A stretch of DNA of 64,000 nt from positions 5,208,001 to 5,272,000 of the forward strand of contig NZ_JACHIS010000001.1 in assembly GCF_014203365.1 (NCBI RefSeq), read 5' to 3'. This DNA comes from Actinoalloteichus hymeniacidonis (lineage in GTDB: Bacteria > Actinomycetota > Actinomycetes > Mycobacteriales > Pseudonocardiaceae). Positions 44,918-63,126 of the stretch are shown in pieces. The notes beneath the pieces are model-generated. The model worked only from the letters and a program-made list of their open reading frames with translations, did not search any database and had not been told where the DNA came from. Made by a program: the position numbers and the translations under genes. The stretch's first letter is position 1; every line of letters begins with the position of its first letter.

Positions 44918-44950
44918 TTGACCTTGACTTGGGTTGAGGTTCCACCATGT
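44918..44950 (+). promoter_or_regulatory. MerR-type promoter
   Basis: A -35-like TTGACC (44918-44923) is followed by the dyad ACCTTGACTTGGGTTGAGGT (44921-44940), with ACCT/AGGT ends and inner AC/GT matches, then TTCCACCAT. The long (about 19 bp) spacing between TTGACC and the putative -10 and the ACCT...AGGT dyad are typical of MerR/SoxR-family activated promoters. It drives the NTF2-like gene at 44955; no MerR gene is in the window. Confidence 0.6.
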
Positions 44951-44954
44951 CGGT

Positions 44955-45514: not shown

Positions 45515-45799
45515 TCACATCGCATCCTTCGTGGCTTCAGCCAGCACGCGGGAGAGGCCGCCCGCCGTCGGGTTCTCCAGGATGGTGCGCACCGGCACCC
45601 GCAGTCCCAGCTCGCTCCGCAATCTCGCCGCCATCCGAACCGCGAGCATCGAATGCCCGCCCAGCGCGAAGAAGTCGGCGTCGGCATCGACCCGCGGCAC
45701 GCCGAAGAGCTCGCACCAGACCGAGGCGACAACGGTCGCGACCTCGGCGGATCGGGTTTCGCTATCGGAGGTCACGATGTTCTCCTCGGGTGCGCTCAC
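45515..45799 (-). CDS. Peptidyl carrier protein
   Basis: 94 residues with the carrier fold. The phosphopantetheine serine is in DFFALGGHSMLAVRM. The GGHS core is of the peptidyl carrier type. It is the last gene of the operon and overlaps the C-PCP gene by 4 bp (ATGA). As the lone A domain gene (47583) has no carrier of its own, this or the carrier of the C-PCP protein is its likely acceptor. The HTH-free acidic N-terminus is about 15 residues. Confidence 0.92.
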   Translation of the reverse strand: MSAPEENIVTSDSETRSAEVATVVASVWCELFGVPRVDADADFFALGGHSMLAVRMAARLRSELGLRVPVRTILENPTAGGLSRVLAEATKDAM

Positions 45800-47586
45800 T
45801 CGCCGGTCCCCTGTCTGTTCCGTCGTTGCTGCAACCGGTTCCGGCGGTCACGCAGCCGCGCTCGTGCCTGGTTCGCCGGTTCCGCCACCGGTTGTTCCGG
45901 GCGGGAGCCGCCTGCCAGTTGTCGCGCGAGTGCGGTGATCGTCGGGAACTCCAGCAGGGACACCAGCGAGGTCCGCACCCCGATCCGAGCACCGATCAGG
46001 GTGTGCACGGTGGCCAGTGCGAACGAGGTGCCACCGAGATCGAAGAAGTTCTCGTCGAGGCCGACGTCCTCGCGGGCCAGTACCTCACGCCAGATCCGGG
46101 CGAGGTTCTGCTCCATCTCGGCGAGGTCCGACGCCGGGAGATCAAGATGGGCGGCCGGCGTCGGTGTCGGGGCCTGCGGCGGAGGTGGCACCGGTTGCGG
46201 TGGGCGCGCGGCCGGACCGGGCAAGGTTCGGATCGGCGTCGCCGGGTCCGCGACCGCCCCGACGAGCAGCTGTACGAATCCCTCGGCCATCCCGGCGATC
46301 GTGGTCGGATCGAACAGGTCGGTCCGGTAGGTGATCGTCAGATCGAAGTCGTCGGGGGCCTCGGGCGACCGGAAGATCATCAGGTCGATGTCGACCTTCG
46401 CCCCGGTCGGCGGCAGATCGATTGGAGTGGCGCGCAGCCCGGAGAGGTGTGGGCGCACGATCGGATCCGGTTCGAAGGAGAAGAACGTCTGGACCAGCGG
46501 GGCGTGGCCGGGATCGCGGTCGGGCGCGAGTTCCTCGGCGAGCTGCTCCATCGTGACGTCCCGGTAGGTCAGGATGTCCAGCAGCTCCGACTGGACCGAC
46601 CGGCAGAGCTCGGCGAAACTTCGGTCCCCGTGCGCCTCGACGAGAACCGGGAGGGTGGTGGCGAAGAACCCGATCATGCTGTCCAACTCGGCGCGGTCGC
46701 GGGCACTCACCGGGACGCCGACCAGCACGTCCGCAACGCCCGCCAAGCGCGAGAGGAGCACGCCGTAGGCGCTGAGGGCCAGCACGAACGGCGTCACCCG
46801 CAGCTCCTGCGCCAAGCGCAGGGCCGGACCCATCACCGCCGCGCCGAGCACCTGCCGATGGTTGCCGCCGTGCGAACCGGCGACCGCCGGACGGGGCCGG
46901 TCGGTCGGCAGACGCAGCACGGTCGGAATCCCGGACAACCGCTCCCGCCACCGGTCGAGCTGTTCGGTGTCCACTGGTCGGGTTCGCTGCCAGCTTGCGT
47001 AGTCGACGAACCGCAGGGCAGGCGCCGCGCATTCGGGGGCACCGGTGTATCCCTCGGCCAGTTCGTCGAAGAAGACCTGGAGCGACGGACCGTCCGAGAC
47101 CAGTTGGTGCATCGTGACGACCAGCAGGTGTCTCTCGGGCTCCACGACGAGTAACCGGGTGCGCAGCAGCGGCCCGCGCTCCAGATCGAAGGGCTCGTCG
47201 GCCCACGCCTGAGCGCGTCGCAGCGCCTCGGCGTCGGCCGGTTCCTCAGCGGCCGGTTCGGCGGTACCCAGCGCGACGACCGGTAACGCGATATCCGGAT
47301 CGCCGATCCGTTGGACCGGTTCGAACGGCGGCTCGGTGTTGGGTGCGAAGGTCGTCCGCAGCGCAGCGTGCCGCGTGACGACCCGCGTGATGGCGCGGCG
47401 CAGTGCCTGCACGTCGAGCGGGCCCTCCAGCCGGACGGCCACCGTGATGTTGTACATCGGAGTGCCCGGTTGCAGCAGTTCCGCCAGGTACAGCGCCCGC
47501 TGAGCACCGGACAGCGGTAGTCCTACCGCCGCCCCGCCCAGCGCCGGGATGCTGTCCGATCCCGCCGGGACGACCCTTTCGATCAC
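45796..47586 (-). CDS. NRPS condensation domain-PCP protein with altered active site
   Basis: 596 residues. The condensation domain (about 20-455) starts LSGAQRALYLAELLQPGTPM and has the DFG-region equivalent and GFFATTLPVLV latch. The catalytic HHxxxDG motif reads HQLVSDG (His160, Gln161, Gly166): the second, catalytic His is Gln. A Pro-rich linker leads to a PCP with intact NFFDLGGTSF. Without the His, peptide-bond formation by the usual route is doubtful. It overlaps the A domain gene upstream and the PCP gene downstream by 4 bp each. Confidence 0.9.
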   Translation of the reverse strand: MIERVVPAGSDSIPALGGAAVGLPLSGAQRALYLAELLQPGTPMYNITVAVRLEGPLDVQALRRAITRVVTRHAALRTTFAPNTEPPFEPVQRIGDPDIALPVVALGTAEPAAEEPADAEALRRAQAWADEPFDLERGPLLRTRLLVVEPERHLLVVTMHQLVSDGPSLQVFFDELAEGYTGAPECAAPALRFVDYASWQRTRPVDTEQLDRWRERLSGIPTVLRLPTDRPRPAVAGSHGGNHRQVLGAAVMGPALRLAQELRVTPFVLALSAYGVLLSRLAGVADVLVGVPVSARDRAELDSMIGFFATTLPVLVEAHGDRSFAELCRSVQSELLDILTYRDVTMEQLAEELAPDRDPGHAPLVQTFFSFEPDPIVRPHLSGLRATPIDLPPTGAKVDIDLMIFRSPEAPDDFDLTITYRTDLFDPTTIAGMAEGFVQLLVGAVADPATPIRTLPGPAARPPQPVPPPPQAPTPTPAAHLDLPASDLAEMEQNLARIWREVLAREDVGLDENFFDLGGTSFALATVHTLIGARIGVRTSLVSLLEFPTITALARQLAGGSRPEQPVAEPANQARARLRDRRNRLQQRRNRQGTGE

Positions 47587-49169
47587 GCTGCTCCCCCGCC
47601 CGCTGCCGACACCTGTTCCTCGGCGACCAAGGCGAGCCGGTCGACCTTCCCGCTGGGCGTGCGCGGCAGGGAATCGACGACGTCGACCCGCACCGGAACC
47701 ATGTAGGCGGGCAGCCGGTCGCGCAGCTGCGCGAGCAGACCCGCTGTCCAGGTCGAGGTGTCGGCGGGCGCCGATTTCGGAATGAGGAACGCACGCAGGT
47801 TCCGATCCTCGGCAGCGGAGCCCGCGACCACCACCACGGCCTGCGCCACCGAGGGGTCGGCGGCCAGTGCGCTCTCGATCTCGCCGAGCTCGATACGGAA
47901 ACCCCGCACCTTGACCTGGGTGTCCTGTCGACCGAGGAATTCCAGAAGACCGTCGGGCAGAACGCGGCCGAGATCACCGCTGCGATAGGCGGGCACGGCC
48001 GGATCCAGCGGATCGGTGCGGTAGCTGAGCGCCGTTCGCTCGGGGAGGTTGAGATAGCCGGGTCCGACGGCGGCGCCGGTGATCCACAGTTCACCCACCT
48101 CGCCGTCCGGAACCGGCGTGCCATCGGGGTCACACACCCGGATGCCGGTGTCGGTGATCGGCCGACCGATCGAGGGCAGGTCCGGCCAGCCGGCCACGTC
48201 GGCGGGCAACTCGTGCCAGGTGGCGACGTGGGTCTCGGTGGTGCCCCACTGGTTGACCAGCCTGCAGTCCGGCAGCCGGGTGAACATCGCCCGGATCGTC
48301 GCCGTCGACTGCACCTGCTCCCCCGAGGTGAGGATCTCGCGCAACGGATGTCGTTGCGGGGTCACCTCGTCGGCGAAGAGCGCGAGCGACTGGATCATCA
48401 CGAAGGGCACGAAGAGCCGGTTGATCCGTTCGCGTTCGATGAGATCCCAGAGCAGCTGCGGATCCAGGCGCTCGTCCTCGTCGCAGCAGATCACCGTGCC
48501 GCCCGCGCCGAGGGTGGGCAGCACCTCCTGATAGGTCACATCGAAGGAGGCCGGGGCGAACTGCAGCGTCCGGTCGCCCGCGCCGCAACCGCTGGCCTCG
48601 GTCTGCCAGGACACCAGGTTGGCCAGGTTGCGATGGGTATAACGCACGCCCTTGGGGCGGCCGGTGGATCCGGAGGTGTAGACGAGGTATGCGTCCGCGT
48701 CCTCGTTCACCTCCGGAGCCTCGAAGGGTGCGAGGGGCGCCGGTTGCAGTGCGGTTCGGGCGCAGGCATAGCCCAACCTCCGATCGGTGAGGACGGTGGT
48801 GAAACCGCCCAGCCGGTCGAGAGGACCCTGATGGCCGATCACCAGCCCCACCCCGGCGTCGGCACACATGAACCGCAGCCGCTCGGCCGGATATCCGACG
48901 TCCAGCGGAACGGCGACGCAACCGGACCGCAGCAGTCCCACCAGCGTCACGATCAGATCCACCGACCGCTCCAGGTGGACGCCGACGGCTGTGCCGCCGA
49001 CGGCGCCGAGCTGGACGACCCGCGCCGCGACCTGCGCGGACCGCTCCCACAGGGTGCGATAGTCGATGGCCTCGTCTGCCGAACGCACCGCCTCGGCCTC
49101 CGGGGTCCGACGCACTCGCTCGGCGACCGCACGCAGCTCGGGCACCGTCGGGTCGGGGTCGGGACTCAT
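47583..49169 (-). CDS. Stand-alone NRPS adenylation domain
   Basis: 528 residues. Core motifs are intact: A3 YTSGSTGRPKGV, A4 FDVTYQEV, A5 NQWGTTETHV, A7 YRSGDLGRV, A8 GRQDTQVKVRGFRIELGEIE and A10 PRTPSGKVDR with its Lys. A4 supplies the Asp expected for an alpha-amino group, and positions 235, 236 and 239 read D, V, Q; the substrate is not predicted here. No carrier domain is fused, so it loads one of the two following PCPs in trans. ATG at 49169 in ATGA overlap with the upstream gene. Confidence 0.92.
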   Translation of the reverse strand: MSPDPDPTVPELRAVAERVRRTPEAEAVRSADEAIDYRTLWERSAQVAARVVQLGAVGGTAVGVHLERSVDLIVTLVGLLRSGCVAVPLDVGYPAERLRFMCADAGVGLVIGHQGPLDRLGGFTTVLTDRRLGYACARTALQPAPLAPFEAPEVNEDADAYLVYTSGSTGRPKGVRYTHRNLANLVSWQTEASGCGAGDRTLQFAPASFDVTYQEVLPTLGAGGTVICCDEDERLDPQLLWDLIERERINRLFVPFVMIQSLALFADEVTPQRHPLREILTSGEQVQSTATIRAMFTRLPDCRLVNQWGTTETHVATWHELPADVAGWPDLPSIGRPITDTGIRVCDPDGTPVPDGEVGELWITGAAVGPGYLNLPERTALSYRTDPLDPAVPAYRSGDLGRVLPDGLLEFLGRQDTQVKVRGFRIELGEIESALAADPSVAQAVVVVAGSAAEDRNLRAFLIPKSAPADTSTWTAGLLAQLRDRLPAYMVPVRVDVVDSLPRTPSGKVDRLALVAEEQVSAAGGGAA

Positions 49170-50560
49170 TTGCGCCACTCCTCGGTTGTCGCCCGGCACA
49201 ACGTGATCCGGTGCGGTCGCTCCGCGCGCAGCAGGACGCGGTTGAGCTCGTGCTCGATCTCGGCCGCCTGCCTCGGCCCTGGTTCGTCCACCGCGACGTT
49301 CAACCCGTAGCGCAGTTCGTTGCGGTCGTCGCGATAGACGGTGGTGGCGGCGTGCCGCACGCCGGGCACGCCTGCGGCGATCCGGCGGATGGAGGGCAGC
49401 CAGATCTTCTCGCCGCCGATGACGACCGAATCGCCCGAGCGGCCCCGGAAGAAGTGGTAGCCCTCGTCGTCGATATCGAAGCGGTCGCCGGTGCCGACGG
49501 TGCCCTCGGTGTTGGGTGCGCCGCCGGGAAGTCGTCGGCGCAGCACGGTGTCTGACTCGACGACGAGTTCGGCGCCCGGTCCGTCGCCCGCGAAGTCACG
49601 TAGGTAGGTGCGCACGCCCGGTAGGGGCACTCCGACGGAACCCCAGCGGTGGGCGGGCTCGCGGTGGGCGGCCAACGTCGTGACCCTCGGACCGGCCTCG
49701 GTGAGGCCGTAGGTGAGGTAGAGCTCTTGCTGCGGACCGTCGGCCAGCAGCGCACCGACGTGGGTCGGTTCCAGGGCATCGCCGCCGACGGTGAGCACCC
49801 GCAGGTCGACCGGCCCGTCGAGCGGTTCCCCCGCGAGCCGCACCGCCGCGCTGGGAGTCAGTGCGGACACCGTGACGTCGTGGCCGCGAATGGTCTCTGC
49901 GAAGGATCGGGGTGTGAACGGCGGTCCGGAGACGACCAGCCGCGAACCCCGCACGAATGCGGCCAAAGCCTGCGCGACCAGACCATAGGAGTAGTACAGC
50001 GGCAGCGACACCAGGACGGTGTCATCCGCGCGTTGGCCGATGGCGGCGGCGTGCCGCTCGGCGTTGCGCAGCAGCGCGTCGACGCCGTGCAGGCAGCCGG
50101 TGCCGATTCCGGAGGTGCCGGAGGTCATCAGGACGACCTCGCCCGGCTGGTAGCGCGTGGCCGTGGCCCACTCCCGGCCCGGGAGCACCGCCTCGCAGCG
50201 GCCGCCGAGTGGATGTGTCGTCGTCGCGTCGTATCGCGCCGGGTCGATTCGGGGCGCGATCAGGGCCGCGCCGCCGAGCCTGCCGCCGATCTCGGTGATC
50301 CGCCGCGCGCCCGCGCCCGGTGGGAGCAACACCGGAACCGCGCCCGCGAGCAGCACGCCGAAGAAGGCGGCGAGGGTGATCTCGCTGTTGGGCATGGCGA
50401 TCAGCACCGGCGAACCGGGCGGCAGCCCCAGCGCGGCGATCGCGTCCACGACGGCCTCGCAGTCGGAGGTGCCCGCGCCCGGCTCGACGGCGGAAACAGA
50501 GCCGTTCAGAAAGGCCAGTACCTCGGCGCGGTCCGGGATACCGGTCCCGGTCGGCCTCAC
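49166..50560 (-). CDS. Acyl-ligase-like (ANL) protein lacking catalytic Lys
   Basis: 464 residues of the acyl-CoA/AMP-ligase superfamily, recognisable by PGSPVLIAMPNS, LMTSGTSGIGTGCL, SLPLYYSYGL, LTYGLTEAGPRV, TGDRFDI and the FRGRSGDSVVIGGEKI hinge. Two key elements are changed. The A3 loop lacks the PKG lysine, and the C-terminus reads LCRATTEEWRK where active enzymes have a pattern like LPRTSTGKWRR, so the A10 Lys is Glu. Adenylation activity is doubtful. GTG start in GTGA overlap with the gene upstream; longer frames overlap two other genes and were rejected. Confidence 0.82.
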   Translation of the reverse strand: MRPTGTGIPDRAEVLAFLNGSVSAVEPGAGTSDCEAVVDAIAALGLPPGSPVLIAMPNSEITLAAFFGVLLAGAVPVLLPPGAGARRITEIGGRLGGAALIAPRIDPARYDATTTHPLGGRCEAVLPGREWATATRYQPGEVVLMTSGTSGIGTGCLHGVDALLRNAERHAAAIGQRADDTVLVSLPLYYSYGLVAQALAAFVRGSRLVVSGPPFTPRSFAETIRGHDVTVSALTPSAAVRLAGEPLDGPVDLRVLTVGGDALEPTHVGALLADGPQQELYLTYGLTEAGPRVTTLAAHREPAHRWGSVGVPLPGVRTYLRDFAGDGPGAELVVESDTVLRRRLPGGAPNTEGTVGTGDRFDIDDEGYHFFRGRSGDSVVIGGEKIWLPSIRRIAAGVPGVRHAATTVYRDDRNELRYGLNVAVDEPGPRQAAEIEHELNRVLLRAERPHRITLCRATTEEWRK

Positions 50561-51129
50561 CGCCCCGCTCCCGCCGGACGCAGTCCCCGGGCCGCCTCGA
50601 TCAGGACGCCGTGCACGTGGTGTCCCCGCTGCGGATCGTGGTCGTGCACGGCGAGCACGACGTGGCTCACCGAAGCGGTCCGCAGCCAGTGTCGGGCCAT
50701 CGTCACCGCTGCGGGCACTCCCTCGGCCGGTTCGGTGGTGAGCACGAGGGTGGGCCCGCGCAGGCCGTGCACCATACAGACCAGGCTCAGCGGGCCGCCC
50801 GCGTTCGCCCCGGCGAACCGCAATGGAGAGACACGTCCGCTCGGTACCGCAGCGGCGATCGCCGACATCGTCGACACGGTGCTGTACGTGCTGATCAGGA
50901 TCAGGGCGGTGGTTCGGGCTGCCTGCAGCACATCGGGACGACCCTCGATCAATCGGTCGACGGCGGCGAGCACCGTCCAGGACGCCGGATCGGCGTAGAA
51001 GGAGGGAATCCGCCGGGGCGGGGGCGCCGTGGCGGGTCGGGTGAGCCGCACCGTGCCCAAGGTGGTCAGCGTGTCCTGCGATCGCGCCAGCAGTTCCTCG
51101 ATCGACGTCGACTCGTGGGGGTGTGTCAC
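50557..51129 (-). CDS. Half-length ketosynthase-like protein without Cys
   Basis: The 190-residue protein matches only the N-terminal half of beta-ketoacyl synthases or chain-length factors: SPLRFAGANAGGPLSLVCMV and LRGPTLVLTTEPAEGVPAAV, where active KSs have a TACSS nucleophile after the GP motif. No Cys stands there, and the His-containing C-terminal half is absent. It may partner the full KS encoded directly upstream (4-bp overlap, GTGA), like a chain-length factor or the KS-like proteins of coronafacic acid-type clusters. Confidence 0.7.
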   Translation of the reverse strand: MTHPHESTSIEELLARSQDTLTTLGTVRLTRPATAPPPRRIPSFYADPASWTVLAAVDRLIEGRPDVLQAARTTALILISTYSTVSTMSAIAAAVPSGRVSPLRFAGANAGGPLSLVCMVHGLRGPTLVLTTEPAEGVPAAVTMARHWLRTASVSHVVLAVHDHDPQRGHHVHGVLIEAARGLRPAGAGR

Positions 51130-52259
51130 GCGGGAACCTCCAGCGCGAGGCAGGTGGTGAAGCCACCGAAGCCGAGCGTGATGCTGAGACCCACCTCGCC
51201 GGTGTCCGGCAGTGGCGTGGCGGCGGTCGGCACCGGCAGCGGGAACTCCGGCGATACCGTGCGCAGACCCGGTATCGGTGGCACCCGCCGGTCCCGCAGG
51301 GCCAACAGCACGGCGATGGCCTCCAGGGCCCCGGTGGCGCCCAGGGTGTGGCCGAAGTTGCCCTTGGTGGCGAACACGATGGGGCCCGTCTCACCGGGGA
51401 AGGTGCGCGCCAGACCGCGACTCTCGGCCTCGTCGTTGACCGGCGTGCCGGAGCCGTGCGCGTTGACCACCACTACCTCGTCGATGCCTCGGCCTGCGGT
51501 GGAAAGCGCGGCGGTGACGGCTTGCACGATGGTGTCGCCGTCCGGATCCGGTGCCGTCGGGCCCGCGGCGTCGTTCGCCGATCCGGCGCCTGCCACTCGA
51601 CCTCGCACGCGAGCGGATCGGGCTCGGGCCGAGCCGGCTCGCTCCAACACGAGGAAGGCGGCTCCCTCGCCGAGGATCGTGCCGTCGTGGTCGGCGTCGA
51701 AGGCCCGCAGGGCGTGCGGCGACATGGTGCCGAGCGCGGAATGTCCGAGCCGTTTGGCCGGTGTCAGCACGTCCGCACCGCCGACGACGCAGCGATCCAA
51801 CTCGCCCTCGGCGATCAACGCGGCGCCGAGCAGGATCGCATCGGAGGCCGCCGAGCAGGCGGTGTTCACCAGCAGGGGCCTGCGCGCCATGCCCGACTCC
51901 GCCGCGAGTCCGATGCCCCAGCGGTCCAGCCGTTCGGGCGGGACGTCCAGGTGTGATCCGTAGCTGGTGCCCGCCACCAGCTGTAGCCCTGGATCGGTGA
52001 GGTCGAGTCCGGCGTCGGCCACCGCCGCCCGCAGGGCCCGCGCACCGAGTTCGTGCTGACGCCGTTCGGGACCGAGGTCCATCGGCAGGTCCGACAGGAT
52101 CGCCGCGTGGTCGTTGCGCAGTCGATGTTGGCTGGGCACCGGGATCATCCCCGTCGTACCGGCCAGCAGCGCCCGCCACACCTGATCCAGATCGGAGCCC
52201 AGCGCCGTGGACCAGGCCATTCCGGTGATCAGCACATCGTCGTCGCCGGTCACCACCAC
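51126..52259 (-). CDS. Beta-ketoacyl synthase (KAS II-like)
   Basis: 377 residues with the complete thiolase-fold triad: NTACSAAS (Cys135), NAHGSGTPVND (His268) and KGNFGHTLGATG (Lys299, His304). It should perform decarboxylative condensation on the cluster's ACP. It begins with GTG codons overlapping the stop of the FabZ-like gene (52259, 52256 or 52253; the last gives the GTGA overlap common in this operon). The half-length KS-like gene follows with overlap, so the pair may act as a heterodimer. Confidence 0.92.
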   Translation of the reverse strand: MVVTGDDDVLITGMAWSTALGSDLDQVWRALLAGTTGMIPVPSQHRLRNDHAAILSDLPMDLGPERRQHELGARALRAAVADAGLDLTDPGLQLVAGTSYGSHLDVPPERLDRWGIGLAAESGMARRPLLVNTACSAASDAILLGAALIAEGELDRCVVGGADVLTPAKRLGHSALGTMSPHALRAFDADHDGTILGEGAAFLVLERAGSARARSARVRGRVAGAGSANDAAGPTAPDPDGDTIVQAVTAALSTAGRGIDEVVVVNAHGSGTPVNDEAESRGLARTFPGETGPIVFATKGNFGHTLGATGALEAIAVLLALRDRRVPPIPGLRTVSPEFPLPVPTAATPLPDTGEVGLSITLGFGGFTTCLALEVPA

Positions 52260-52768
52260 TGCGGCCCCAGGTCGGCTGCCTTGCGCCGGACGAGGTTGGC
52301 ACGGAAGGCCGCGACCGGCGTCGAATCGACGGCCGCCCGACCGGAGAAGAAGAAGGTGTTGTCGATGAGCCGGTCGACCGTGACCGTGATCGTCACCGTG
52401 TCGCCTGGCGCGATGATCCGGAAGTACCGCGAGTTCATCGCGCCGACCAGCGTGAGCTCGTCCTCGGCCAGCGGCGAGGTGCTGAGCTGGAACAGGATGA
52501 TCCCGGACTGCGCGAACGCCTGGCTCAGGTGGCTGGCGGGGTAGATCGCGCGTTCCGGGAAGTGTCCGGCGATCGCGTCCAGCTGTCCCGACGCCGAGAG
52601 TCGGCTGACCAGCCGGACACCGGGTTCGTAGTCGAGCACGCGGTCGAGGTAGAGCATCGGGTGCCGGTGCCGCAGCCAGTTCTTGATCTCGGTGAAGCCC
52701 ATCGACCGGCCCGGAACGGGCGCGGCGGGGTCGGCCGGGGCAACCATGGCGGTGTCATCGGCGGGCAT
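52250..52768 (-). CDS. FabZ-like hotdog protein with Glu-to-Gln active site
   Basis: 172 residues in the FabZ/FabA hotdog fold: LRHRHPMLYLDRVLDYEPG, GHFPERAIYPASHLSQAFAQ and FRIIAPGDTVTITV. In FabZ the catalytic pair is the His of GHFPG and a Glu 14 residues later. Here His69 is present but position 83 is Gln (LSQAFAQ instead of the EAxAQ pattern). Dehydratase activity is therefore questionable; a binding or non-canonical role is possible. GAGGAG precedes the ATG at 52768, which overlaps the thioesterase gene end. Confidence 0.85.
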   Translation of the reverse strand: MPADDTAMVAPADPAAPVPGRSMGFTEIKNWLRHRHPMLYLDRVLDYEPGVRLVSRLSASGQLDAIAGHFPERAIYPASHLSQAFAQSGIILFQLSTSPLAEDELTLVGAMNSRYFRIIAPGDTVTITVTVDRLIDNTFFFSGRAAVDSTPVAAFRANLVRRKAADLGPQWW

Positions 52769-53207
52769 CGGAGCGGCTCTCCTCGAGGATGGCGTGCAAG
52801 GCGGGGTGAAGCGCGCAGGGGGCACCGGTGGCGCGGTCGGTCACGGCGATCAGCAGGGAACCCGTGGCGAGTTCGGTGTCCTCGTTGCGGCGGCGGATCG
52901 TCGTGTCGATTCGGGCTCTGGCCGCCCCGAGGTGTCCGACGGTGGGTGCCAGGACCAGTTCGTCCGGATAGCGGGCCGGGGAGCGGTATTGCGTCCTGAC
53001 CTCGGTGACGACCAGGTCCAGTCCGTCGCGGGCGAGCACGGCGAGGCCCGCCCCGAGGCGTTCGAGGTTGGCCAGCAGTGCGGTTTCCAGCAGGACGGGG
53101 TACCGGGCGAAGTGCATGACGCCGGACGCATCGGTGTCGGCGTGTTCGACGCGTCGGTGGACCGGCAGCAGCCGCGAGTCCGAGTTCGCCGACGGGGTGG
53201 CCGTCAT
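52755..53207 (-). CDS. YbgC/4HBT-like thioesterase
   Basis: The 150-residue hotdog thioesterase has HADTDASGVMHFARYPVLLE near the N-terminus; the second Asp of DTD (Asp26) aligns with the catalytic Asp of YbgC and 4-hydroxybenzoyl-CoA thioesterase. It is followed by LDLVVTEVRTQYRSPARYPD and the RRRNEDTELATG strands. It could hydrolyse acyl-ACP or CoA intermediates and release or edit the chain; the cluster shows no type I thioesterase domain. ATG in ATGA overlap with the aminotransferase stop. Confidence 0.88.
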   Translation of the reverse strand: MTATPSANSDSRLLPVHRRVEHADTDASGVMHFARYPVLLETALLANLERLGAGLAVLARDGLDLVVTEVRTQYRSPARYPDELVLAPTVGHLGAARARIDTTIRRRNEDTELATGSLLIAVTDRATGAPCALHPALHAILEESRSDARR

Positions 53208-54595: not shown

Positions 54596-54646
54596 GGATG
54601 TGTCCTTTCGGCGGAGCTGGTCAGGGGCCGTAGACGTCCGGGGCGG

Positions 54647-54916
54647 TCAGTCGCCCGCGACCGACGTCTTGCTCTGCAGGGAGCGGACGAGACCGGCGAC
54701 GGTGCCGATGCTGGTGAAGTTCTCCGGGGTGAAATCGGCGTCGGAGATGGTGACGCCGAAGGTGTTCTCGCACTGGACGCGCAACTCGACGAAGCCCAGG
54801 GAGTCCAGTCCGAGATCGCCACGCAACCGGTCATCGGGGTTCATCCGGTCCTCCGGGACCTCGACGAACAGGTCGGCGGCCAGCATGGAGCCGATGGCTC
54901 GCTCGATGTCGTTCAC
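54647..54916 (-). CDS. Acyl carrier protein
   Basis: 89 residues with the ACP signature DLGLDSLGFVEL; the Ser carries phosphopantetheine. The acidic helix composition is FAS/PKS-like rather than PCP-like. GTG start in GTGA overlap with the KS-AT gene. It is the natural partner of the two KSs, the aminotransferase and the thioesterase. Confidence 0.92.
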   Translation of the reverse strand: MNDIERAIGSMLAADLFVEVPEDRMNPDDRLRGDLGLDSLGFVELRVQCENTFGVTISDADFTPENFTSIGTVAGLVRSLQSKTSVAGD

Positions 54917-57243
54917 GGAAGACGTTCTCCTTCGGTCGAGGGACTGACGTGGTGGGTGGCGGCGAAGGTCGGATGCGGCACCAGATAGGGGCGCCGCTCG
55001 AACGGGTAGGTGGGCAGCTCGACGCGGCGCCGCCGTTCACCCGCGTGCAGGGCCGCGAAGTCGACGGCTGCCCCGGCCACCCAGACTCGGCCTGCGGCGG
55101 CCAACGCCGTCCGATAACCGGTAGGCGTCCGGTCGGGCGCGTCGCGGACGTCGACGAAGACCGACTGGCCGAGGTCGGGCGCGGGCGCCTCGGTCTGCCG
55201 GGCCCCGAGGTGCACGAGGAGTCGGCCGGGTTCGGCTGCCAACGCCGCCTGCACGTCGCAGAGCCGAGGTCGGTCGGACCGGACCTGCGCCTCGGCGGCG
55301 TGGTCGGCATCGGGAGCGCGTCGGGGTTCGGGCCGGGCCGCCGTGCCGAGGCTGCGGGCGAAATCGGCCGCACTCGCGCCCGAGGCGATCGCCTCGGCGC
55401 AGTGGGAGCCGAGGCCCTGCCCGGCGACGAGGTCGGGCTGCAGTCCCCAGGACATCAGCAGCTGCGCCGTGGCGTACTGCACGGCCAGCTGTGCCACGGG
55501 CGTACTCGCCGAGCCGGGCTCAGTGAGTAGGTGATCGCGCAGGTCGTAGCCGAGATGGGGCTGCGCGGCCTCGGCGATCTCGTCCAGCCGGGCGCGGAAC
55601 ACCGCCTCGGCGGCGTGGATCGCGGCGAGGGAACCTGTGGTGTCGTCGCCGTCGGGCTGGGGCTCGGCGAAGAGGAAGACGGTGCGCGGTCGATGGGCTC
55701 GGTCGGCGGCCGGTCCGCCCGACGACGGGCAGGCCCGTAGTGCCGCGATCGCCTCCGGCAGGTTTGAGGCCAGCACGAAGCGACGTTCGGTGTGCCGGGT
55801 TCGGCCCGTCTGCAACGTCCAGGCGACGTCGGCCAGGTCGGTTTCCGGGTGCCGTTCCAGGTGATCGGCGAGCGAGTGAGCGAGGTCGCCGAGCGCGGAT
55901 TCGGTCCGGGCCGAGAGAACCAACAGCTGGGTGGGACGACCGGGGCTGGTCGGCGGCGCGGCGGGCGGCTCGGCCAGCACGGCGTGTGCGTTGGTTCCGC
56001 CGTAGGCCAGCACGTTCGTGGCGCCGATCCGAGGGCGGCCCTCGGTCTCCCACGGCACGGTCCGGTCGTTGACGACGAACGGGGTGGCCGCGAGATCGAT
56101 CGCCGGGTTCGGCTCGCGGAAGTTCACCGTGGCCGGGAGGACACCGCGTTCCACGCACAGCACGGTCTTGATCAGGCCGACGATGCCTGCGGCCGCGTCG
56201 GCGTGGCCGATGTTGCCCTTGACCGAGCCGAGCCTGCAGTACCCCGTTCGATCGGTGCTCTGTCGAAACGCCTTGGTCAATCCCGCGACCTCGATCGGGT
56301 CGCCGAGCGCGGTGCCCGTGCCGTGCGCCTCGACGTAGCCGATCTCGTCGGCATCGACATCGGCCACCAGCGCGGCGGTGCGGGCCGCCCCGGCCGAACC
56401 GGGCACGCTGGGGGCGTGGAAGCCCATCTTGCGTCTGCCGTCGTTGTTCACGGCGGTGCCCCGGATGACCGCGTGCACGTGGTCGCCGTCGTCGAGGGCG
56501 TCGGCGAGTGGGCGCAGCACCACCAAGCCGACCGCGCTGGCCCGCACGGTGCCTCGACCGTGCGCGTCGAACGGACGACACCGCCCGTCGTCGGCGAAGA
56601 TGTCGTCCGGATCGTGTTGCAGCGGCGGGATCGCGGCCAGTACCGAGGCGCCGCCCGCGATCGCCATCTCACAGTCGCCTGCGAGTAGGGCACCGATGGC
56701 GACGTGCACGGCCACCAGGGACGAGGAGCAGGCCGACTGCACCGCCATGGCAGGCCCGGTCAGGCCCAGCTTGTAGGCGACCCGGGTGGCGAGGAAATCG
56801 ACGTCGTTGCCTTGTTGGACACGGGAGTCCGAGATAGGAGCGCCGCGCCTGCGCCCCCAGTCCCGGACGAACGCGGCGTGGTCGGTGACCGATCCGCCGA
56901 CGAACACGCCGGTCGATCGGCTCTCCGGGCCGCCGTGCCCGGCTCGTTCGAGGGCCTCGTGGGCGCACTCCAGCAGCAGTCTGTGCTGCGGGTCCAGAAT
57001 CAGGGCGTCCTCGGCCGAGTAATCGAAGTAGTCGGCGTCGAAGAGGTCGGCACCACTCAGTAGTCCGTAGGACGGCACGTACCCGGCGGGAGCCGTCGAC
57101 AGTTGGTCGGACAGTACCGAAACGGATTCCCGACCGTTGCAGAGGTTGTCCCAGAATTGCTCGACATCCGCTGCCCCCGGGAAACGACCGGCCATCGCAG
57201 TGACGGCAATGAAACCGCTGTCGCCAACGTCTTCGGTACTCAT
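54913..57243 (-). CDS. PKS ketosynthase with vestigial acyltransferase
   Basis: 776 residues. The KS (about 5-425) is complete: SACSSS (Cys172), EAHGTG (His307) and KGNIGH (His347). After it a shortened AT-like part (about 440-690) keeps LARTESAL-type and LAVQYATAQLLMSWGLQPD text, but the GQGxQ entry motif is FLFAEPQP and the GHSxGE nucleophile elbow is GQGLGSHCAE, so the Ser is lost. It ends with the post-AT linker LPTYPFERRPYL. It should condense but not select extender units. ATG at 57243, GAGG four bases upstream; start of the downstream part of the operon. Confidence 0.9.
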   Translation of the reverse strand: MSTEDVGDSGFIAVTAMAGRFPGAADVEQFWDNLCNGRESVSVLSDQLSTAPAGYVPSYGLLSGADLFDADYFDYSAEDALILDPQHRLLLECAHEALERAGHGGPESRSTGVFVGGSVTDHAAFVRDWGRRRGAPISDSRVQQGNDVDFLATRVAYKLGLTGPAMAVQSACSSSLVAVHVAIGALLAGDCEMAIAGGASVLAAIPPLQHDPDDIFADDGRCRPFDAHGRGTVRASAVGLVVLRPLADALDDGDHVHAVIRGTAVNNDGRRKMGFHAPSVPGSAGAARTAALVADVDADEIGYVEAHGTGTALGDPIEVAGLTKAFRQSTDRTGYCRLGSVKGNIGHADAAAGIVGLIKTVLCVERGVLPATVNFREPNPAIDLAATPFVVNDRTVPWETEGRPRIGATNVLAYGGTNAHAVLAEPPAAPPTSPGRPTQLLVLSARTESALGDLAHSLADHLERHPETDLADVAWTLQTGRTRHTERRFVLASNLPEAIAALRACPSSGGPAADRAHRPRTVFLFAEPQPDGDDTTGSLAAIHAAEAVFRARLDEIAEAAQPHLGYDLRDHLLTEPGSASTPVAQLAVQYATAQLLMSWGLQPDLVAGQGLGSHCAEAIASGASAADFARSLGTAARPEPRRAPDADHAAEAQVRSDRPRLCDVQAALAAEPGRLLVHLGARQTEAPAPDLGQSVFVDVRDAPDRTPTGYRTALAAAGRVWVAGAAVDFAALHAGERRRRVELPTYPFERRPYLVPHPTFAATHHVSPSTEGERLP

Positions 57244-57875
57244 ACCTCGGTCTTTCATGGAATCGATCTGAGCGCAGACACAACGAAAGGAACGCGAATA
57301 GCCACTGCCTCTGACTGCGTGGGTGGGTGACGGTCGGTGGAGCATAATCACACGTCAGCACACGCGAAGGGGGGCACCGAGTGAACAACAGTAAAACTTT
57401 CAACGAAGCTGGAGCATTACGCCTGATACATTCCCCATTCCTATGATTCAAGCCCCAAGGCCACTACTGTCCACAGAAGATCCGGGCGGCCGAACTCGCC
57501 CCCGGCCGCCCGGCTTGACAACCACGCAAACGACTGGGTCTACTGAGATCGGCCAGCTTATGCGAACGCCATACAGGCCACCATGCGTGCAATCAAGAAC
57601 GCCGATATAGTCGGTCCGCGCAGCCAGTCGAGGAGACGTTTGTCCCGCAATTCCCGCAACCGTCGGGTATTCGCGCCCGCATTCCACTCGCGGCACGATT
57701 CGCGCGCCGGAGTCGACCGGACCGCCCCACGGCATGGTTCGCCGCACGCGCCATGGACCAGCCCCGCTCGCCGCCACCGCCCGCAGGCGCCCGCGTCCGC
57801 AAGCGCCGTCGTCGGCCGAGCCTGCGAAACCGCTCCGCCAGCCTGACGATCACCACTCATCGCGAAGGAAGACCA
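57244..57875. other. Divergent promoter region with GC hairpin
   Basis: No gene recognised between the KS-AT and MFS genes. The first 200 bp is comparatively A+T-rich (for example GTAAAACTTTCAACG) and probably holds the operon promoter. A strong hairpin CCGGGCGGCCG (57482-57492) / CGGCCGCCCGG (57503-57513) follows; its role is unknown. Small frames in 57560-57860 are Arg/Pro-rich shadows. Confidence 0.5.
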
Positions 57876-59159
57876 ATGCCCAAGACGACCGGATGGCGGT
57901 CGGGCCTGCGCCGGAGCCTGTGGGGCGTCGCGGATTACCGCAACCTCTGGATGTCCCAGACCGTCAGCCTGTTCGGCACCGGCATCACCCTGCTGGCGCT
58001 GCCGCTGATCGCGTTGTCCCTGTTGGAAGCAACGCCCTTCGAGATCGGCCTGCTCTGGGCGTTCGAGTACCTGGCCATCCTGCTGATCGGTCTGCCCGCC
58101 GGCGTCTGGGTGGAGCGGTTACCCCTGCGGGCGGTGCTGGTGGGCGCAGATCTGATCCGGGCGGTGGCGCTGCTCACCGTGCCGATCGCGTTGCTGCTTG
58201 GCGTGCTCAGCATGCCGCTGCTCTACCTCGTCGCATTCCTGATCGGCCTCGGCGCACTGTTCTACGACGTCGCACAGTTGTCGATGTTGCCGGTGCTGGT
58301 CGCCGAGGACCGCCTCGTCGACGCCAACGGGAAGTTGGAGCTCTCCCGTTCCGTGGCGCAGATCGGCAGCCCGGCAGTCGGTGGTTTCACGGTGCAGCTG
58401 CTCACCGCCCCGTTCGCGGTGCTCGCCGATGCGGTGACGTACCTGGCGTCGGCGTTCTACGCGTTGCGGATTCGCAAGCCTGCGCCGGTCGCCCAACCGG
58501 TCGAACGCAGTAGCCTGCGCAAGGAGATCCGCGAAGGCGTGCGGTTCGTCTTCGGGCACTCGCTGATGCGCCCGCTGCTGTTGTGCGCCACGTTGGGCGA
58601 ACTCTCCTCGGCGATCATCCTCGCCATGCAGGTGGTCTTCGCCACCGAAGCGCTGTTCATGACGCCTGCGGTGATCGGTATCGCCTTGGCCGCAGGCAAC
58701 GGTGGCGGCGTGGTCGGGGCACTGGTCGCGGAGCCCTTCGCGCGCCGGTTCGGCACCGGAACCGCCTTCATGGTCTCGATCGTGCTGTTCACCGCAGGTT
58801 CGGCGATCCTGCCGATGTCCACCGGCCCGGTGACCTTCGCGTTCGGAATGTTCGTCGCCTATCTCGGCGCGTTCATCTTCAATGTGCTGCAGGTCAGCCT
58901 GTGCCAGGCCGTCACCCCGCCACACATGCTGGGCCGGATGAACTCGGTCTTCCGATTCGCAACCTGGGGCGTCATCCCGCTGGGCGCCGCAGGCGGTGGT
59001 CTGCTCGTCGATTACATCGGCCTGGCAGGGGTCTTCTGGTTGGCCGCCGCACTCAACGCCCTGTCGTTCCTGCCGCCGCTGTTCTCCGCGCTCCCCAGGC
59101 TCCGCGAGATCCCGCACCACAGCGTGGCGCCGGACGGGCCCTCGACAGGTCAGCGGTAA
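57876..59159 (+). CDS. MFS transporter of the biosynthetic cluster
   Basis: 427 residues, twelve helices, starting WGVADYRNLWMSQTVSLFGT, the pattern of the MFS_3 (EntS/TetV-like) exporter family. Motif-A-like text is GVWVERLPLRAVLVGADLIR. It is the only plus-strand gene within the cluster, placed between the NRPS and the PKS operon and convergent with the NRPS gene. It likely exports the product or confers self-resistance. The ATG at 57876 has GAAGGAAG before it; an earlier in-frame ATG at 57753 adds an Arg/Pro-rich stretch without homology. Confidence 0.88.
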   Translation: MPKTTGWRSGLRRSLWGVADYRNLWMSQTVSLFGTGITLLALPLIALSLLEATPFEIGLLWAFEYLAILLIGLPAGVWVERLPLRAVLVGADLIRAVALLTVPIALLLGVLSMPLLYLVAFLIGLGALFYDVAQLSMLPVLVAEDRLVDANGKLELSRSVAQIGSPAVGGFTVQLLTAPFAVLADAVTYLASAFYALRIRKPAPVAQPVERSSLRKEIREGVRFVFGHSLMRPLLLCATLGELSSAIILAMQVVFATEALFMTPAVIGIALAAGNGGGVVGALVAEPFARRFGTGTAFMVSIVLFTAGSAILPMSTGPVTFAFGMFVAYLGAFIFNVLQVSLCQAVTPPHMLGRMNSVFRFATWGVIPLGAAGGGLLVDYIGLAGVFWLAAALNALSFLPPLFSALPRLREIPHHSVAPDGPSTGQR

Positions 59160-59191
59160 CGACGCAAGGCACCATCCGCGCGATTCGTGGC

Positions 59192-62100
59192 TCAGCGATC
59201 GCCGACGGCATCGACCCCTCCGGCCGATCGCACGGCGGCGCGGCGACGGTTCAGGCGAGCCCGGCCCACACCGCGTCGCACCGCTCGCTCGGACTCGGCG
59301 GCATCCCGGCCCGCATCCCCGGCACGATCGTCCAGGAACCGGGCCAGATCGTGGATCGTCGGATACTCGAAGAACGTCACGATCGACAGCTCGTGCCCCC
59401 GCGCGGCCAGCTCCCGCTGCACCGAGGCCAACAGCAACGAGTGGCCGCCGATATCGAAGAAGTTCTCATCGAGCCCGACTCGATCCAGCCCCAACACGGT
59501 GCACCAGACCTCGGCGAGCCAGCGTTGGGTCCCGGTGTCCGGCGCCCGGAAGTCGAGAGCACGCTCGGCGGGCCCCGGTGCGGGCAGCGCACGCTCGTCC
59601 ACCTTGCCGTTCCGGTTCAGCGGCAGGGAATCCAACAGCACGAAGTCGGCGGGGACCATGTATCTGGGGAGTCGATCGGCGAGGTGTTCCCGCACCTGCT
59701 GCCGCAACATCGGACGGTCCACCGCCTCCAGATAGGCGACGAGGCGCTTCTCGCCTGCCCCATCGGCCGTGGCCAGCACCACCGCGTCGACGATCTCGGG
59801 GTGCGCGCGCAGCGCCTCGACGATCTCCGCCGGTTCGATCCGGTAGCCCCGGAGTTTGATCTGTCGATCCCGCCTCCCGAGGAAGGCGATCCTGCCGTCG
59901 GGCAGATGCCGGGCGAGATCGCCGGTGCGATACATCCGACGCCCCGGCACGGCGGCGAACGGGTCGGGGACGAACCGCTCCGAGGTGATCGCGGCCGCAC
60001 CGTGATAGCCCCTGGCCACCCCGACGCCGCCGATCCAGAGCTCACCGGTCACGCCGGGCGGGACCGGCCTGCGCCACGCGTCGAGAAGGTAACCCGCGAC
60101 ACCGGTGATCGGACGACCGATATCGGGCGGGCCCTGTCCGACTCCGACAGGCTCGATTTCGCCTGCCGTCGCCGTCGCGGTGGCCTCCGAGGGGCCGTAC
60201 TCGTTGAGCACCCGGAAGGACAGGTCGGCGGCGGGCCGCACCCGCAGCCGGTCGCCACCGGTGATCAGCGTCCGCATGGCGGGCCCGGCGGGCCAGGGCA
60301 GGGTCAGCACCCGCTCGGCCAGTGCGGTCGGCAACTCGGTGACGGTGATGCGCTCGTCGACCAGCCAGGTCCGCAGCCGCTCCGGATCCAGGCGCGTGTC
60401 CTGATCGGGCACGTAGAGCGTCGCGCCGGAGACCAGGGTGGGCCAGATGTCCATCACCGAGGTGTCGAAGCCGGGCGAGGCGACCTGGGCGATCCGGTCG
60501 GTCGTCCCCAGCTCGCACCGCCGACAGCGCCAGGCGACCGCGTTGGTCAGCGAGCCATGCTCGATCATCACGATCTTCGGCTGCCCGGTCGAACCGGAGG
60601 TCGCGATCAGGTAGGCGAGGTCGTCGGGTGTCGTCGCATCCGGTGGGGCGTCCTCGACCGCCTGGGCGGCGATCGGCAGCCGGTCCATCGACAATCGACG
60701 CAGATCACCGGGCAGGCGATCGGCGACGACGCTGTCGGTGATGATGAGGACGGCATCGGCGGCGGCGTACTGGTCCGCCATCCGGGCGGGCGGATTCTCC
60801 GGGTCCAGGGGCAGATAGGCCGCCCCGGCGAAGAGCACGGCGAGTTCGGCGATCACCAGATCCGCGCCCCTGGGCAGGCACACGCCCACCACGGTCCGGG
60901 GCCGGACGCCTCGATCGCGCAGGATCACCGCCAGCGAGTCGGCCCGCTGGACCAATTCGGCGTAGCCGACCTCCCGGACGCCCTCGCGAATGGCCGGGGC
61001 ATCCGGAGTGCGCCGAGCCTGCGCGCGGACCGCGTGATGGACGAGCGGACCGTCGTCGGTCGGTTGATCGCGTTCGGGGTTCCATTCGTCCAGGACCAGA
61101 ACACGGTCCTGTGGGCTGAGCACGGCCAGTTCGAACAGGGGTGCCGTCGGCCGGGTGATCGCATCGGTCAGCAGCCGCTGCCAACTGTCGGCCATCCGCC
61201 GAACGGTTGCCGGGTCGAACAGATCGGCGGCGTACTCCCAGAGCATGGTGATCCGGTCATCGGCGGACTCGGCCCCGGCTGCCGGATCCGGCCCGCTCGG
61301 AAGCACCCTGACGTTGAGATCCATCTTCGTCGAGCCGTTGCCATGCTCGGTGCTGATTCCCGTCGCCCCAGCGAGATCGAGCTGCGGCAGCGGCGAGTCG
61401 TCCATGCTGAAGAAGACGTCGGTCAACGGGTTACGGCCGGCTTCCCTGGCCGGGTTGAGCACCCGGATCAACTCCGTGAACGGCAGCAGCTCGTTGGCCT
61501 TCGCGTCCTGCACCCCGGCACGCACCTTGGCAACCAGGTCTCGGAAACCCAGGGTGGCGTCGACCTCGCACCGCAACAGCACCGTGTTGACGAAGCGGCC
61601 GAGCAGTTCCTCGGTACCGGGTGTTTCCCGGCCGGGGAACCAGGATCCGACGCAGAGGTCACGCTGCCCGGTGTAGCGGTAGAGCAGCGTGTAGAACGCC
61701 GCGAGCATGACCTCGAACGGGGTGGCCCGCTGTGCCGCACAGAACGCACGTATTCCGGCGGCGATCTCGGTTGGCAACTCCACGCGCAGCGTCTCGCCTC
61801 GGAAACTCTGGGCGGCGGGCCTCGGGTGGTCCATCGGCAGGTCCAGCAGCGGCGGGAGATCCGCGAGCCGCTCCCGCCAGTAGGCGAGTTGGGCGCCGAG
61901 GGCCGAGGTGGCCAGTGCGGCGCGTTGCCAGCGTGCGAAGTCCCGGTACTGGCCGGGCGGCATGGCTGTCCGCTGTTCGATCTCAATGCCCTGGGCATCG
62001 GCGTTGTACAGCGCCGTGAACTCGCGCAGCAACAACGCGAAGGATCGGCCGTCGTCCAGCAGGTCGCTGCGCACCACGATGAGCTCGTGTTCGGTGTCCG

Positions 62101-62551
62101 CCAGCCGCACCACGGTCCAGCGCAGCAACGGCAGCTCGGTGATGCGAAACGGCCTGCGCAGCTCCTGGGCCACGATGTCGGCCAACGCCTCGGATCGCCC
62201 GTCCCGGACATCGCCGATGTCGAACCGCGTCGCCCGGACCGGTTGTGGCGGGTGCACCACCTGGCGTGGTTCGCCACCGACCTCCGGATAACCGGTGCGC
62301 AGGATCTCGTGTCGACGGCCGAGCTCGGTGCAGGCCCGGTCGAGTCGGTCGAGGTCGAAGGCACCGGTGATCCGGATCGTCGCCAGCGCGTGGTGCGCGA
62401 CGCTCTCCGGCGCGAGTCGATGCAGGAACCAGATCTGTTCCTGTTGCAGTGACAGGGCGCTCTCGGCCGCCGCGGCCGGTTCGGCGATCAATGGCGGAAG
62501 TGCCGGTTCGCATCGCGCCGAGTGCGACCCGCCTGCGGTGTCGTCGGTCAT
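59192..62551 (-). CDS. NRPS module C-A-PCP with altered condensation site
   Basis: 1119 residues. C domain (about 30-460), A domain (about 490-985), PCP (about 1000-1075), basic tail. The C domain lacks both histidines of HHxxxDG: the aligned text is SDLLDDG (Ser162, Asp163, Gly168). The A domain is intact: ATSGSTGQPKIV, FDTSVMDIW, NEYGPSEAT, YRTGDLARH, KLRGYRIEPAEI and NRNGKVDE. The PCP has NFFDIGGHSLLL. Specificity positions 235, 236 and 239 read D, T, M; no substrate is predicted. No thioesterase or terminal reductase follows. Overlaps the SET gene by 4 bp. Confidence 0.93.
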   Translation of the reverse strand: MTDDTAGGSHSARCEPALPPLIAEPAAAAESALSLQQEQIWFLHRLAPESVAHHALATIRITGAFDLDRLDRACTELGRRHEILRTGYPEVGGEPRQVVHPPQPVRATRFDIGDVRDGRSEALADIVAQELRRPFRITELPLLRWTVVRLADTEHELIVVRSDLLDDGRSFALLLREFTALYNADAQGIEIEQRTAMPPGQYRDFARWQRAALATSALGAQLAYWRERLADLPPLLDLPMDHPRPAAQSFRGETLRVELPTEIAAGIRAFCAAQRATPFEVMLAAFYTLLYRYTGQRDLCVGSWFPGRETPGTEELLGRFVNTVLLRCEVDATLGFRDLVAKVRAGVQDAKANELLPFTELIRVLNPAREAGRNPLTDVFFSMDDSPLPQLDLAGATGISTEHGNGSTKMDLNVRVLPSGPDPAAGAESADDRITMLWEYAADLFDPATVRRMADSWQRLLTDAITRPTAPLFELAVLSPQDRVLVLDEWNPERDQPTDDGPLVHHAVRAQARRTPDAPAIREGVREVGYAELVQRADSLAVILRDRGVRPRTVVGVCLPRGADLVIAELAVLFAGAAYLPLDPENPPARMADQYAAADAVLIITDSVVADRLPGDLRRLSMDRLPIAAQAVEDAPPDATTPDDLAYLIATSGSTGQPKIVMIEHGSLTNAVAWRCRRCELGTTDRIAQVASPGFDTSVMDIWPTLVSGATLYVPDQDTRLDPERLRTWLVDERITVTELPTALAERVLTLPWPAGPAMRTLITGGDRLRVRPAADLSFRVLNEYGPSEATATATAGEIEPVGVGQGPPDIGRPITGVAGYLLDAWRRPVPPGVTGELWIGGVGVARGYHGAAAITSERFVPDPFAAVPGRRMYRTGDLARHLPDGRIAFLGRRDRQIKLRGYRIEPAEIVEALRAHPEIVDAVVLATADGAGEKRLVAYLEAVDRPMLRQQVREHLADRLPRYMVPADFVLLDSLPLNRNGKVDERALPAPGPAERALDFRAPDTGTQRWLAEVWCTVLGLDRVGLDENFFDIGGHSLLLASVQRELAARGHELSIVTFFEYPTIHDLARFLDDRAGDAGRDAAESERAVRRGVGRARLNRRRAAVRSAGGVDAVGDR

Positions 62552-63126
62552 CGGCCCTGCCGGGGCGCTTGAGCACCGGCCTCCACCGGCTGCAGGGCCG
62601 CGAGCACCGAGTCAGACGACTCGGGTGCAGGCTCGCTCAGGTAGCCGGCCAGGTGGCTGGGCTGCCAGGATGGGTCGGCGCTTCGGTAGCGGTAGCCCCG
62701 AATCACCGATCGACAGCCGGTCGCGCCGCAGAGGCACCGGGAGACGGCGATGCTCACGTACTCGCTCGTCTCGTAATCCCAGGTGATCTCTTCGTCCGGC
62801 CCGATCTCCCGAAGCGCGATGAAGTCGAATCCACCCCGGTCGTTGTCCCGAATCCCGGTGTTGGGATCGCAGGAGTGGTTGATGTCCCGAGCTGGTGTGG
62901 TCAGGTCGACATGGGAGTCCCAGCCGACCTGGAAAGAATGGGTGGTGCGAGTCGGCACGATTCGCTCGACATCGCCGACGACCACGGTCTGACCGATCGC
63001 GAATTCCGAGGTGGAAACGACACAGCGACCTTTATCCGGATCCACCACGATCTGCAACCCAGCACCGTCGATGTTACCCGTGATACGCGCTTCACCTGCA
63101 CCGACGCCAGAATCCCGCTGTCGCAA
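62548..63126 (-). CDS. SET domain protein in the NRPS operon
   Basis: 192 residues. SET motifs are NHSCDPN (83-89) and EEITWDY (112-118), with a post-SET CLCGATGC zinc-type cluster (Cys131, Cys133, Cys138). SET proteins are SAM-dependent lysine methyltransferases, so this may methylate a carrier/NRPS protein, another protein or a small amine substrate. It is translationally coupled (ATGA) to the NRPS module. TTG start with GGAAGGA seven bases before; an in-frame GTG is seven codons downstream. Confidence 0.87.
   Translation of the reverse strand: MRQRDSGVGAGEARITGNIDGAGLQIVVDPDKGRCVVSTSEFAIGQTVVVGDVERIVPTRTTHSFQVGWDSHVDLTTPARDINHSCDPNTGIRDNDRGGFDFIALREIGPDEEITWDYETSEYVSIAVSRCLCGATGCRSVIRGYRYRSADPSWQPSHLAGYLSEPAPESSDSVLAALQPVEAGAQAPRQGR

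Follow-up and report, generated by a model that had tools for sequence, protein, structure and literature searches.

In a 64,000-nucleotide stretch of the Actinoalloteichus hymeniacidonis genome (the window; G000:C1:5208001-5272000, in a 6.3-Mb genome on a single contig, with 23 condensation-domain matches) we describe an antibiotic-type biosynthetic cluster that is probably, at odds we put at roughly 60%, a hybrid nonribosomal peptide synthetase (NRPS)-polyketide synthase (PKS) system arranged round a complete cassette for the β-amino acid cispentacin. On this reading, one condensation (C) domain with Gln in place of the second His of its motif, here called C(HQ), would be active and retuned, and another, C*, would be a relic, as would the acyltransferase (AT) domains. 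A preliminary description of the stretch had listed altered residues in two C domains, a FabZ-like protein, a ligase-like protein, an AT and a half-length ketosynthase (KS), and these changes are present in the sequence; the parts that it called intact, including the KS and carrier domains, keep their motifs. Judged by gene content and order, by the residues and their conservation and by the contrast in selection between domains, all directly observed, the altered residues fall in three classes: specialist enzymes of the cispentacin (amc) cassette, apparently eroding C* and AT domains, and a conserved HQ C domain. The roles assigned here to the HHxxxDG, GHSxG and A3 motifs follow, beyond the passages cited below, general background knowledge.

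Cluster layout and the cispentacin cassette

Flanking stretches were fetched and genes were re-called with a simple composition score. The cluster occupies the minus strand between 45.5 kb in the window and G000:C1:5279706, so that the end at 63126 given in the preliminary description does not hold: a gene for C, adenylation (A), peptidyl carrier protein (PCP), thioesterase (TE) and major facilitator superfamily (MFS) domains and a KS-AT-PCP gene continue it for 7.7 kb outside the window. What had been described as one operon set is two minus-strand gene sets with a plus-strand MFS gene (57753-59159) between them. In 5′ to 3′ order, KS-AT-PCP (KSAT2), C-A-PCP-TE-MFS, a SET protein and C-A-PCP precede the MFS gene, and KS-AT (KSAT1), AmcB, C, D, E, F, G and H, a stand-alone A domain, C-PCP and a PCP follow it. 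The frames are open, as had been claimed, but the overlaps are not all of 4 bp: with assumed starts they reach 34 bp (amcH/A), 10 bp (amcF/E) and 14 bp (amcE/D), and a 51-bp gap separates amcB from amcC. The genes are as follows.

45515-45799, minus: stand-alone PCP (PF00550)
45796-47586, minus: C(HQ)-PCP, a condensation domain (HQxxxDG) followed by a carrier (PF00668, PF00550)
47583-49199, minus: stand-alone A domain with the code DVQFLSQVAK, which may activate cispentacin (PF00501; code by alignment)
49166-50560, minus: AmcH, 2-oxoglutaryl-ACP ligase (the ligase-like protein), start assumed (NF058661, 620.8 bits, cut-off 370)
50557-51129, minus: AmcG, cyclisation factor (the half-length KS; NF058659, 197.3 bits, cut-off 80)
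51126-52259, minus: AmcF, ketosynthase (NF058662, 562.4 bits, cut-off 325)
52250-52768, minus: AmcE, hot-dog decarboxylase (the FabZ-like protein), start assumed (NF058663, 258.9 bits, cut-off 140)
52755-53207, minus: AmcD-like 4HBT thioesterase, start assumed (PF13279, PF03061; cassette position)
53204-54595, minus: AmcC, class III aminotransferase (NF058664, 793 bits, cut-off 600)
54647-54916, minus: AmcB-like acyl carrier protein (PF00550; cassette position)
54913-57351, minus: KSAT1, intact KS and AT remnant, start uncertain (PF00109, PF02801, partial PF00698; orthologs)
57753-59159, plus: MFS transporter (PF07690)
59192-62551, minus: C*-A-PCP, C with SDLLDDG (probable relic), A code DTMEIGEATK, carrier
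62548-63126, minus: SET-domain protein, 192 aa, inside the operon (PF00856)
63429-64000 in the window and on to G000:C1:5276852 (whole gene 5271429-5276852), minus: C-A(Cys)-PCP-TE(Cys)-MFS
G000:C1:5276860-5279706, outside the window: KS-AT-PCP (KSAT2)

When named genomes were scanned with AmcG, the one relative to emerge was a syntenic cluster in Nonomuraea candida NRRL B-24552. AmcG exceeded its cut-off in 1 of 3 genomes of the genus (only the present one), 17 of 390 in the family, 7 of 397 in the order and 13 of 341 in the family of N. candida, counts that include the query genome or N. candida itself. Weak matches to the AmcG profile (26.7 to 28 bits, cut-off 80) occur in long frames of all three genus genomes, and that at G000:C1:5113222-5113578 is possibly a piece of an ordinary KS. 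The clusters of N. candida, G1003 and G905 share the layout apart from the SET gene, with protein identities of mostly 62-87% (in G1003 and G905 the C-terminal piece of KSAT2 reaches 55-56%), and with the present one are termed the full-layout clusters; the G1003 contig ends inside C-PCP. More distant variants with rearranged modules are found in G903 and G908, and in G781, G711 and G689. A candidate fusion of MFS to KS-AT in G689 was dropped: its two matches lie in different frames and Pfam gave no MFS match in the long frame. Among the open-licence papers listed by our literature searches we saw no description of the cluster; the supplementary cluster lists of Hibi et al. (2023), which may include it, lay outside these searches.

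All seven genes amcB-H stand together in the cluster. Five of the proteins (AmcC, E, F, G and H) exceed NCBIfam equivalog cut-offs and lie in the published order; AmcB and AmcD were assigned by Pfam, gene order and homology to other cassettes. The Pfam search gave no match for the half-length KS at 50557-51129, and the idea that it came from an aryl-polyene chain-length factor was abandoned on its match to AmcG. AmcE carries Gln in place of Glu (SQAFAQ) and the A3 region of AmcH lacks PKG, and both changes are identical in all 13 cispentacin-type clusters compared, the present one included. The passages cited from Hibi et al. (2023; PMC10698177) describe reconstitution of the seven amc proteins: AmcH puts 2-oxoglutarate on AmcB, AmcF-AmcG elongate once and then cyclise, AmcE acts as a hot-dog decarboxylase, and reduction by FabI, amination by AmcC and release by AmcD give cispentacin, with FabD suggested to load AmcB. 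Since the AmcE and AmcH changes are those of the other clusters and of a published pathway, this part of the finding is known chemistry; by homology, the altered AmcE, AmcG and AmcH correspond to specialist enzymes whose unusual reactions were already published in 2023. The amc cassette of amipurimycin (PMC10698177, in the passages cited) has amcB-H in identical order, but here the cassette is accompanied by NRPS and KS modules, a stand-alone A domain of DVQ type and an HQ C domain.

By homology to the enzymes reconstituted elsewhere, AmcH would load 2-oxoglutarate on AmcB, AmcF-AmcG would extend it by one malonate unit and form the five-membered ring, and decarboxylation by AmcE, reduction by host FabI, amination by AmcC and release by AmcD would yield cispentacin. 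The later steps are our proposal: the stand-alone A domain would activate cispentacin onto a carrier and C(HQ) would join it to a neighbouring unit, C*-A-PCP would serve as loading module, the intact KS and carrier parts would use malonyl supplied in trans (e.g. by FabD) or only pass the chain on, and the final Cys-coded module with its cysteine thioesterase would release the product. The code of the stand-alone A domain, DVQFLSQVAK, conforms to DVQF..QVAK in 7/9 clusters, the present one included (the variants are DVQFLTQVSK in G781 and DIQFLAQVAK in G908). The sections cited from a signature survey (PMC12283262) give Val236/Gln239 as frequent for proline and, for azetidine carboxylic acid, list DVQCLSEVTK and DMQLVSQQVK. 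It is reasonable to guess that the substrate may be a small-ring amino acid such as cispentacin. The A domain of C-A-PCP has the code DTMEIGEATK here and in G905, and DTTEIGEATK and DPTEIGEATK in the other two full-layout clusters; the substrate assignment of DTMEIGEATK is not firm. The clusters point to an apparently undescribed family of cispentacin peptides.

Acyltransferase and C* domains with signs of erosion

Neither AT of the cluster has both parts of a malonyl AT, namely GHSxG with its Ser and a small subdomain with its His. In KSAT1 (54913-57351) the AT is shortened and reads GQGLG, without Ser; the Ser is lost in 4/4 full-layout clusters, and the small subdomain is missing too. This AT is reduced to the post-AT linker in G903 and G908, and the KS Cys is kept in 6/6. 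The second degenerate AT, that of KSAT2, lies outside the window and was not part of the preliminary description; it keeps GHSVG and has lost the small subdomain and His. Its counterparts are canonical (GHSLG and AAHS, full length) in 5/9 clusters (G903, G908, G781, G711 and G689), full length with AAHS but GYSLG or GYGLG in G905 and G1003, respectively, and in N. candida carry GYGPG and AAHS with the small subdomain deleted. The KSAT2 ATs therefore span canonical, Ser-less and truncated forms, a natural series for domain loss from assembly lines. Ranked by score among 55 AT matches in the genome, the three pieces from the cluster come 52nd, 54th and 55th (the 53rd is a partial match outside the cluster).

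Ratios of nonsynonymous to synonymous change (dN/dS) were obtained by a simple count (Nei-Gojobori type) over four orthologs, with no likelihood test. They are higher in AT than in KS for both KSAT1 (0.52 vs 0.19; 1000/1000 bootstraps) and KSAT2 (0.40 vs 0.26; 991/1000), and across C* and the ATs amount to 1.5-2.7 times those of adjacent domains. A high ratio alone is no proof of function loss, since the MFS domain fused in-frame to the C-terminus of the NRPS thioesterase module in 4/4 full-layout clusters has a dN/dS of 0.71. We read the state of the ATs as domain loss in progress inside open frames. As the KSs are intact, extension with malonyl supplied in trans would be possible; a pass-through role of the KSs is the alternative. 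It is conceivable, if somewhat unlikely, that the AT remnants still function, as platforms on which a trans-acting AT docks in the manner of trans-AT PKSs: the adjoining KS and PCP are intact, all four full-layout clusters retain the large AT subdomain and the post-AT linker, and a role for FabD in loading AmcB has been suggested (Hibi et al. 2023, PMC10698177, in the passages cited). However, the ATs evolve at 1.5 to 2.7 times the dN/dS of their own KS, the KSAT1 AT is missing in G903 and G908, and no gene recognised in the cluster encodes a free-standing AT; single-domain-size frames with an AT match exist elsewhere in the genome.

C*, the C domain of C-A-PCP, departs from HHxxxDG in all four orthologs and differently in each (SDLLDDG here, NHLLRDR in N. 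candida, SQLLFDG in G1003 and SHLLHDG in G905), the first His being lost in 4/4 and the second kept in 2/4. Its dN/dS of 0.49 (bootstrap 0.41-0.59) compares with 0.24 for its own A domain and exceeded that domain and the canonical C domain in 1000/1000 bootstraps each and C(HQ) in 998; in a tree of C domains the four C* domains sit on a long stem (1.18). The nearest protein in G903 and G908 is an A-carrier (A-T) protein with no C domain, which at 36% identity is perhaps not an ortholog. We read C* as a probable relic on the loading module, eroding in an open frame.

The HQ condensation domain

The C domain of C-PCP (45796-47586) has HQLVSDG in place of canonical HHxxxDG. HQxxxDG is found in all nine clusters that have this C domain, down to 49% identity, with the motif His, Gln, Asp and Gly invariant throughout. 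Of the other four cispentacin-type clusters, two (G690 and G683) showed no C domain within the 40 kb fetched, and the C domains of G225 and G297 are HH; this survey of C motifs left out other fetched amc-type clusters (G113, G120, G008 and G010). A profile of the nine C(HQ) domains was searched in 390 family genomes, 301 of which gave a match at 1e-75, and the best locus from each of 30 genomes was examined: the six from amc clusters are HQ and the other 24/24 are HH. In a tree of 41 C domains HQ forms a single clade (99/97). Its sister group consists of four HH domains (joint fork 100/99) from G791, G787, G785 and G790, whose clusters have the same C-A-T, MFS, KS-AT-T and A-T genes. Neither an amc cassette nor a stand-alone DVQF A domain appears in the 40 kb fetched for any of these four, and none is among the 17 family genomes with AmcG; their opposite strand carries other A and C genes in place of the amc genes. 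The code of the A domain beside the C domain is DAESIGSVTK or DVENVGAVTK with HQ and DIEISG..NK with HH. Within one backbone type, HQ accompanies the cassette, and related backbones with and without it are set apart by the second His of one C domain and form a natural before-and-after set. These clusters make the role of the second His, like the loss of domains from assembly lines, directly testable.

C(HQ) is about as constrained as the canonical C domain of the same clusters (dN/dS 0.34, bootstrap 0.27-0.42, vs 0.30, 0.23-0.37). In streptothricin biosynthesis the C-PCP protein ORF18, which acts on β-lysine oligopeptides, has HQxxxDM, and changing its Gln to Ala lowers activity; the role of the second His in C domains is described as debated (both from passages of PMC11546977). 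As described there, ORF18 resembles the present C-PCP in its Gln for the second His, and the systems are alike in having stand-alone A genes (ORF19 in streptothricin) and a β-amino acid substrate. It differs in its HQxxxDM motif and in joining a β-lysine oligopeptide to an aminoglycoside. In our reading C(HQ) would be active, with an adaptation to the β-amino acid cispentacin.

Several observations weigh against the cispentacin cluster as we read it. AmcB and AmcD rest on Pfam and position, with no match to an equivalog model in the NCBIfam search (the best matches of AmcD were YbgC-type and below cut-off). G225 and G297, which are cispentacin-type and have NRPS genes, show HH in 3/3 C domains and have no DVQF-type A domain. 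HQ is one event on the tree, at which the neighbouring A code also changes, so that its link to cispentacin counts as a single observation. Finally, the dN/dS of C(HQ) exceeded that of the canonical C domain in 814/1000 bootstraps.

C(HQ) might instead have no catalytic activity and persist as a scaffold or docking platform on which carriers are aligned, with the stand-alone A domain or another enzyme making the amide. We regard this as unlikely: the second His of HHxxxDG is generally held to be the main catalytic residue, and the title of Maruyama 2012 reports a stand-alone A domain forming amide bonds in streptothricin biosynthesis, but the four motif residues are invariant in 9/9 domains, dN/dS is near that of canonical C domains, and ORF18 is active with HQxxxDM and weakened by Gln to Ala (PMC11546977, in the passages cited). 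Plain decay of a dying pathway, in which every altered residue marks a loss of function, has the drifting motifs and raised dN/dS of C* and both ATs in its favour but is very improbable and was rejected for the operon as a whole, given open frames, a layout common to N. candida, G1003 (to its contig end) and G905, dN/dS of 0.16 to 0.39 for the amc proteins, A domains, KSs and C(HQ), indicating purifying selection on most domains, and AmcE and AmcH changes that are those of a working pathway.

The preliminary description, which had argued against plain decay and suggested folds used as scaffolds or for other chemistry, is thus borne out in part. Most domains are constrained within a shared layout, and C* and the ATs are eroding; other chemistry holds for AmcE, AmcG and AmcH through the published pathway and is plausible for C(HQ), and the notion that every loss means new chemistry was rejected for C* and the ATs, whose motifs drift. 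The conservation of altered residues that it had proposed as a check is seen in AmcE and AmcH (13/13) and in HQ (9/9) but not in C* and the ATs, whose motifs differ between orthologs. Canonical orthologs or relaxed selection, which it had named as refuting evidence, were found only for C* and the ATs, with a canonical KSAT2 AT in 5/9 related clusters.

Terminal module and neighbouring genes

The terminal A domain has the code DLYNMSLIWK in 4/4 full-layout clusters, a code that appears in the section on cysteine-activating domains of the signature survey (PMC12283262, as far as cited). The TE that follows has GHCGVG, with a Cys nucleophile, in 4/4 orthologs. Its best match among solved structures is ObiF1 (1e-20), followed by 6vap (‘Thioesterase’, 2.5e-10) and RifR, and in the alignment its GEHDP places an Asp in the GxxDP loop after β7 (position II), opposite GGQDP of ObiF1. 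According to the passages cited from PMC11298585, among NRPS TEs an Asp at that loop position occurs only in ObiF1 and SulTE, both of which use Cys as nucleophile and form four-membered rings; the same Asp position is found in some type II thioesterases. The TE is thus like ObiF1, the β-lactone-forming NRPS TE of obafluorin, in its GHC nucleophile and GxxDP-loop Asp; it differs in following a Cys-coded A domain and in its fusion to an MFS domain. G903 and G908 end differently, in KS-AT-T-TE with a Ser TE.

A joint reading, in which HQxxxDG marks a class of C domains tuned to β-amino acids and a small cispentacin peptide has its terminal Cys closed to a β-thiolactone by the ObiF1-like TE, is quite improbable as a whole. 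If true, the class would cover cispentacin here and β-lysine in streptothricin, and the β-thiolactone would be a strained warhead. Hydrolysis and macrocyclisation are possible alternatives to thiolactone release.

The SET protein has NHSCxPN and post-SET Cys motifs. Its gene was not found in N. candida or G1003; of these relatives, G905 alone shares it (at 17262-17744 of the joined stretch L074+L075; 75% identical). The two SET-bearing clusters both have the C-A-PCP code DTMEIGEATK, which, with four clusters only, may be chance. A 2006-aa protein with a C-terminal CHAT protease domain (37755-43775) adjoins the cluster, and a small DUF4440/SnoaL-like protein is encoded on the plus strand (44934-45377) beside the stand-alone PCP gene.

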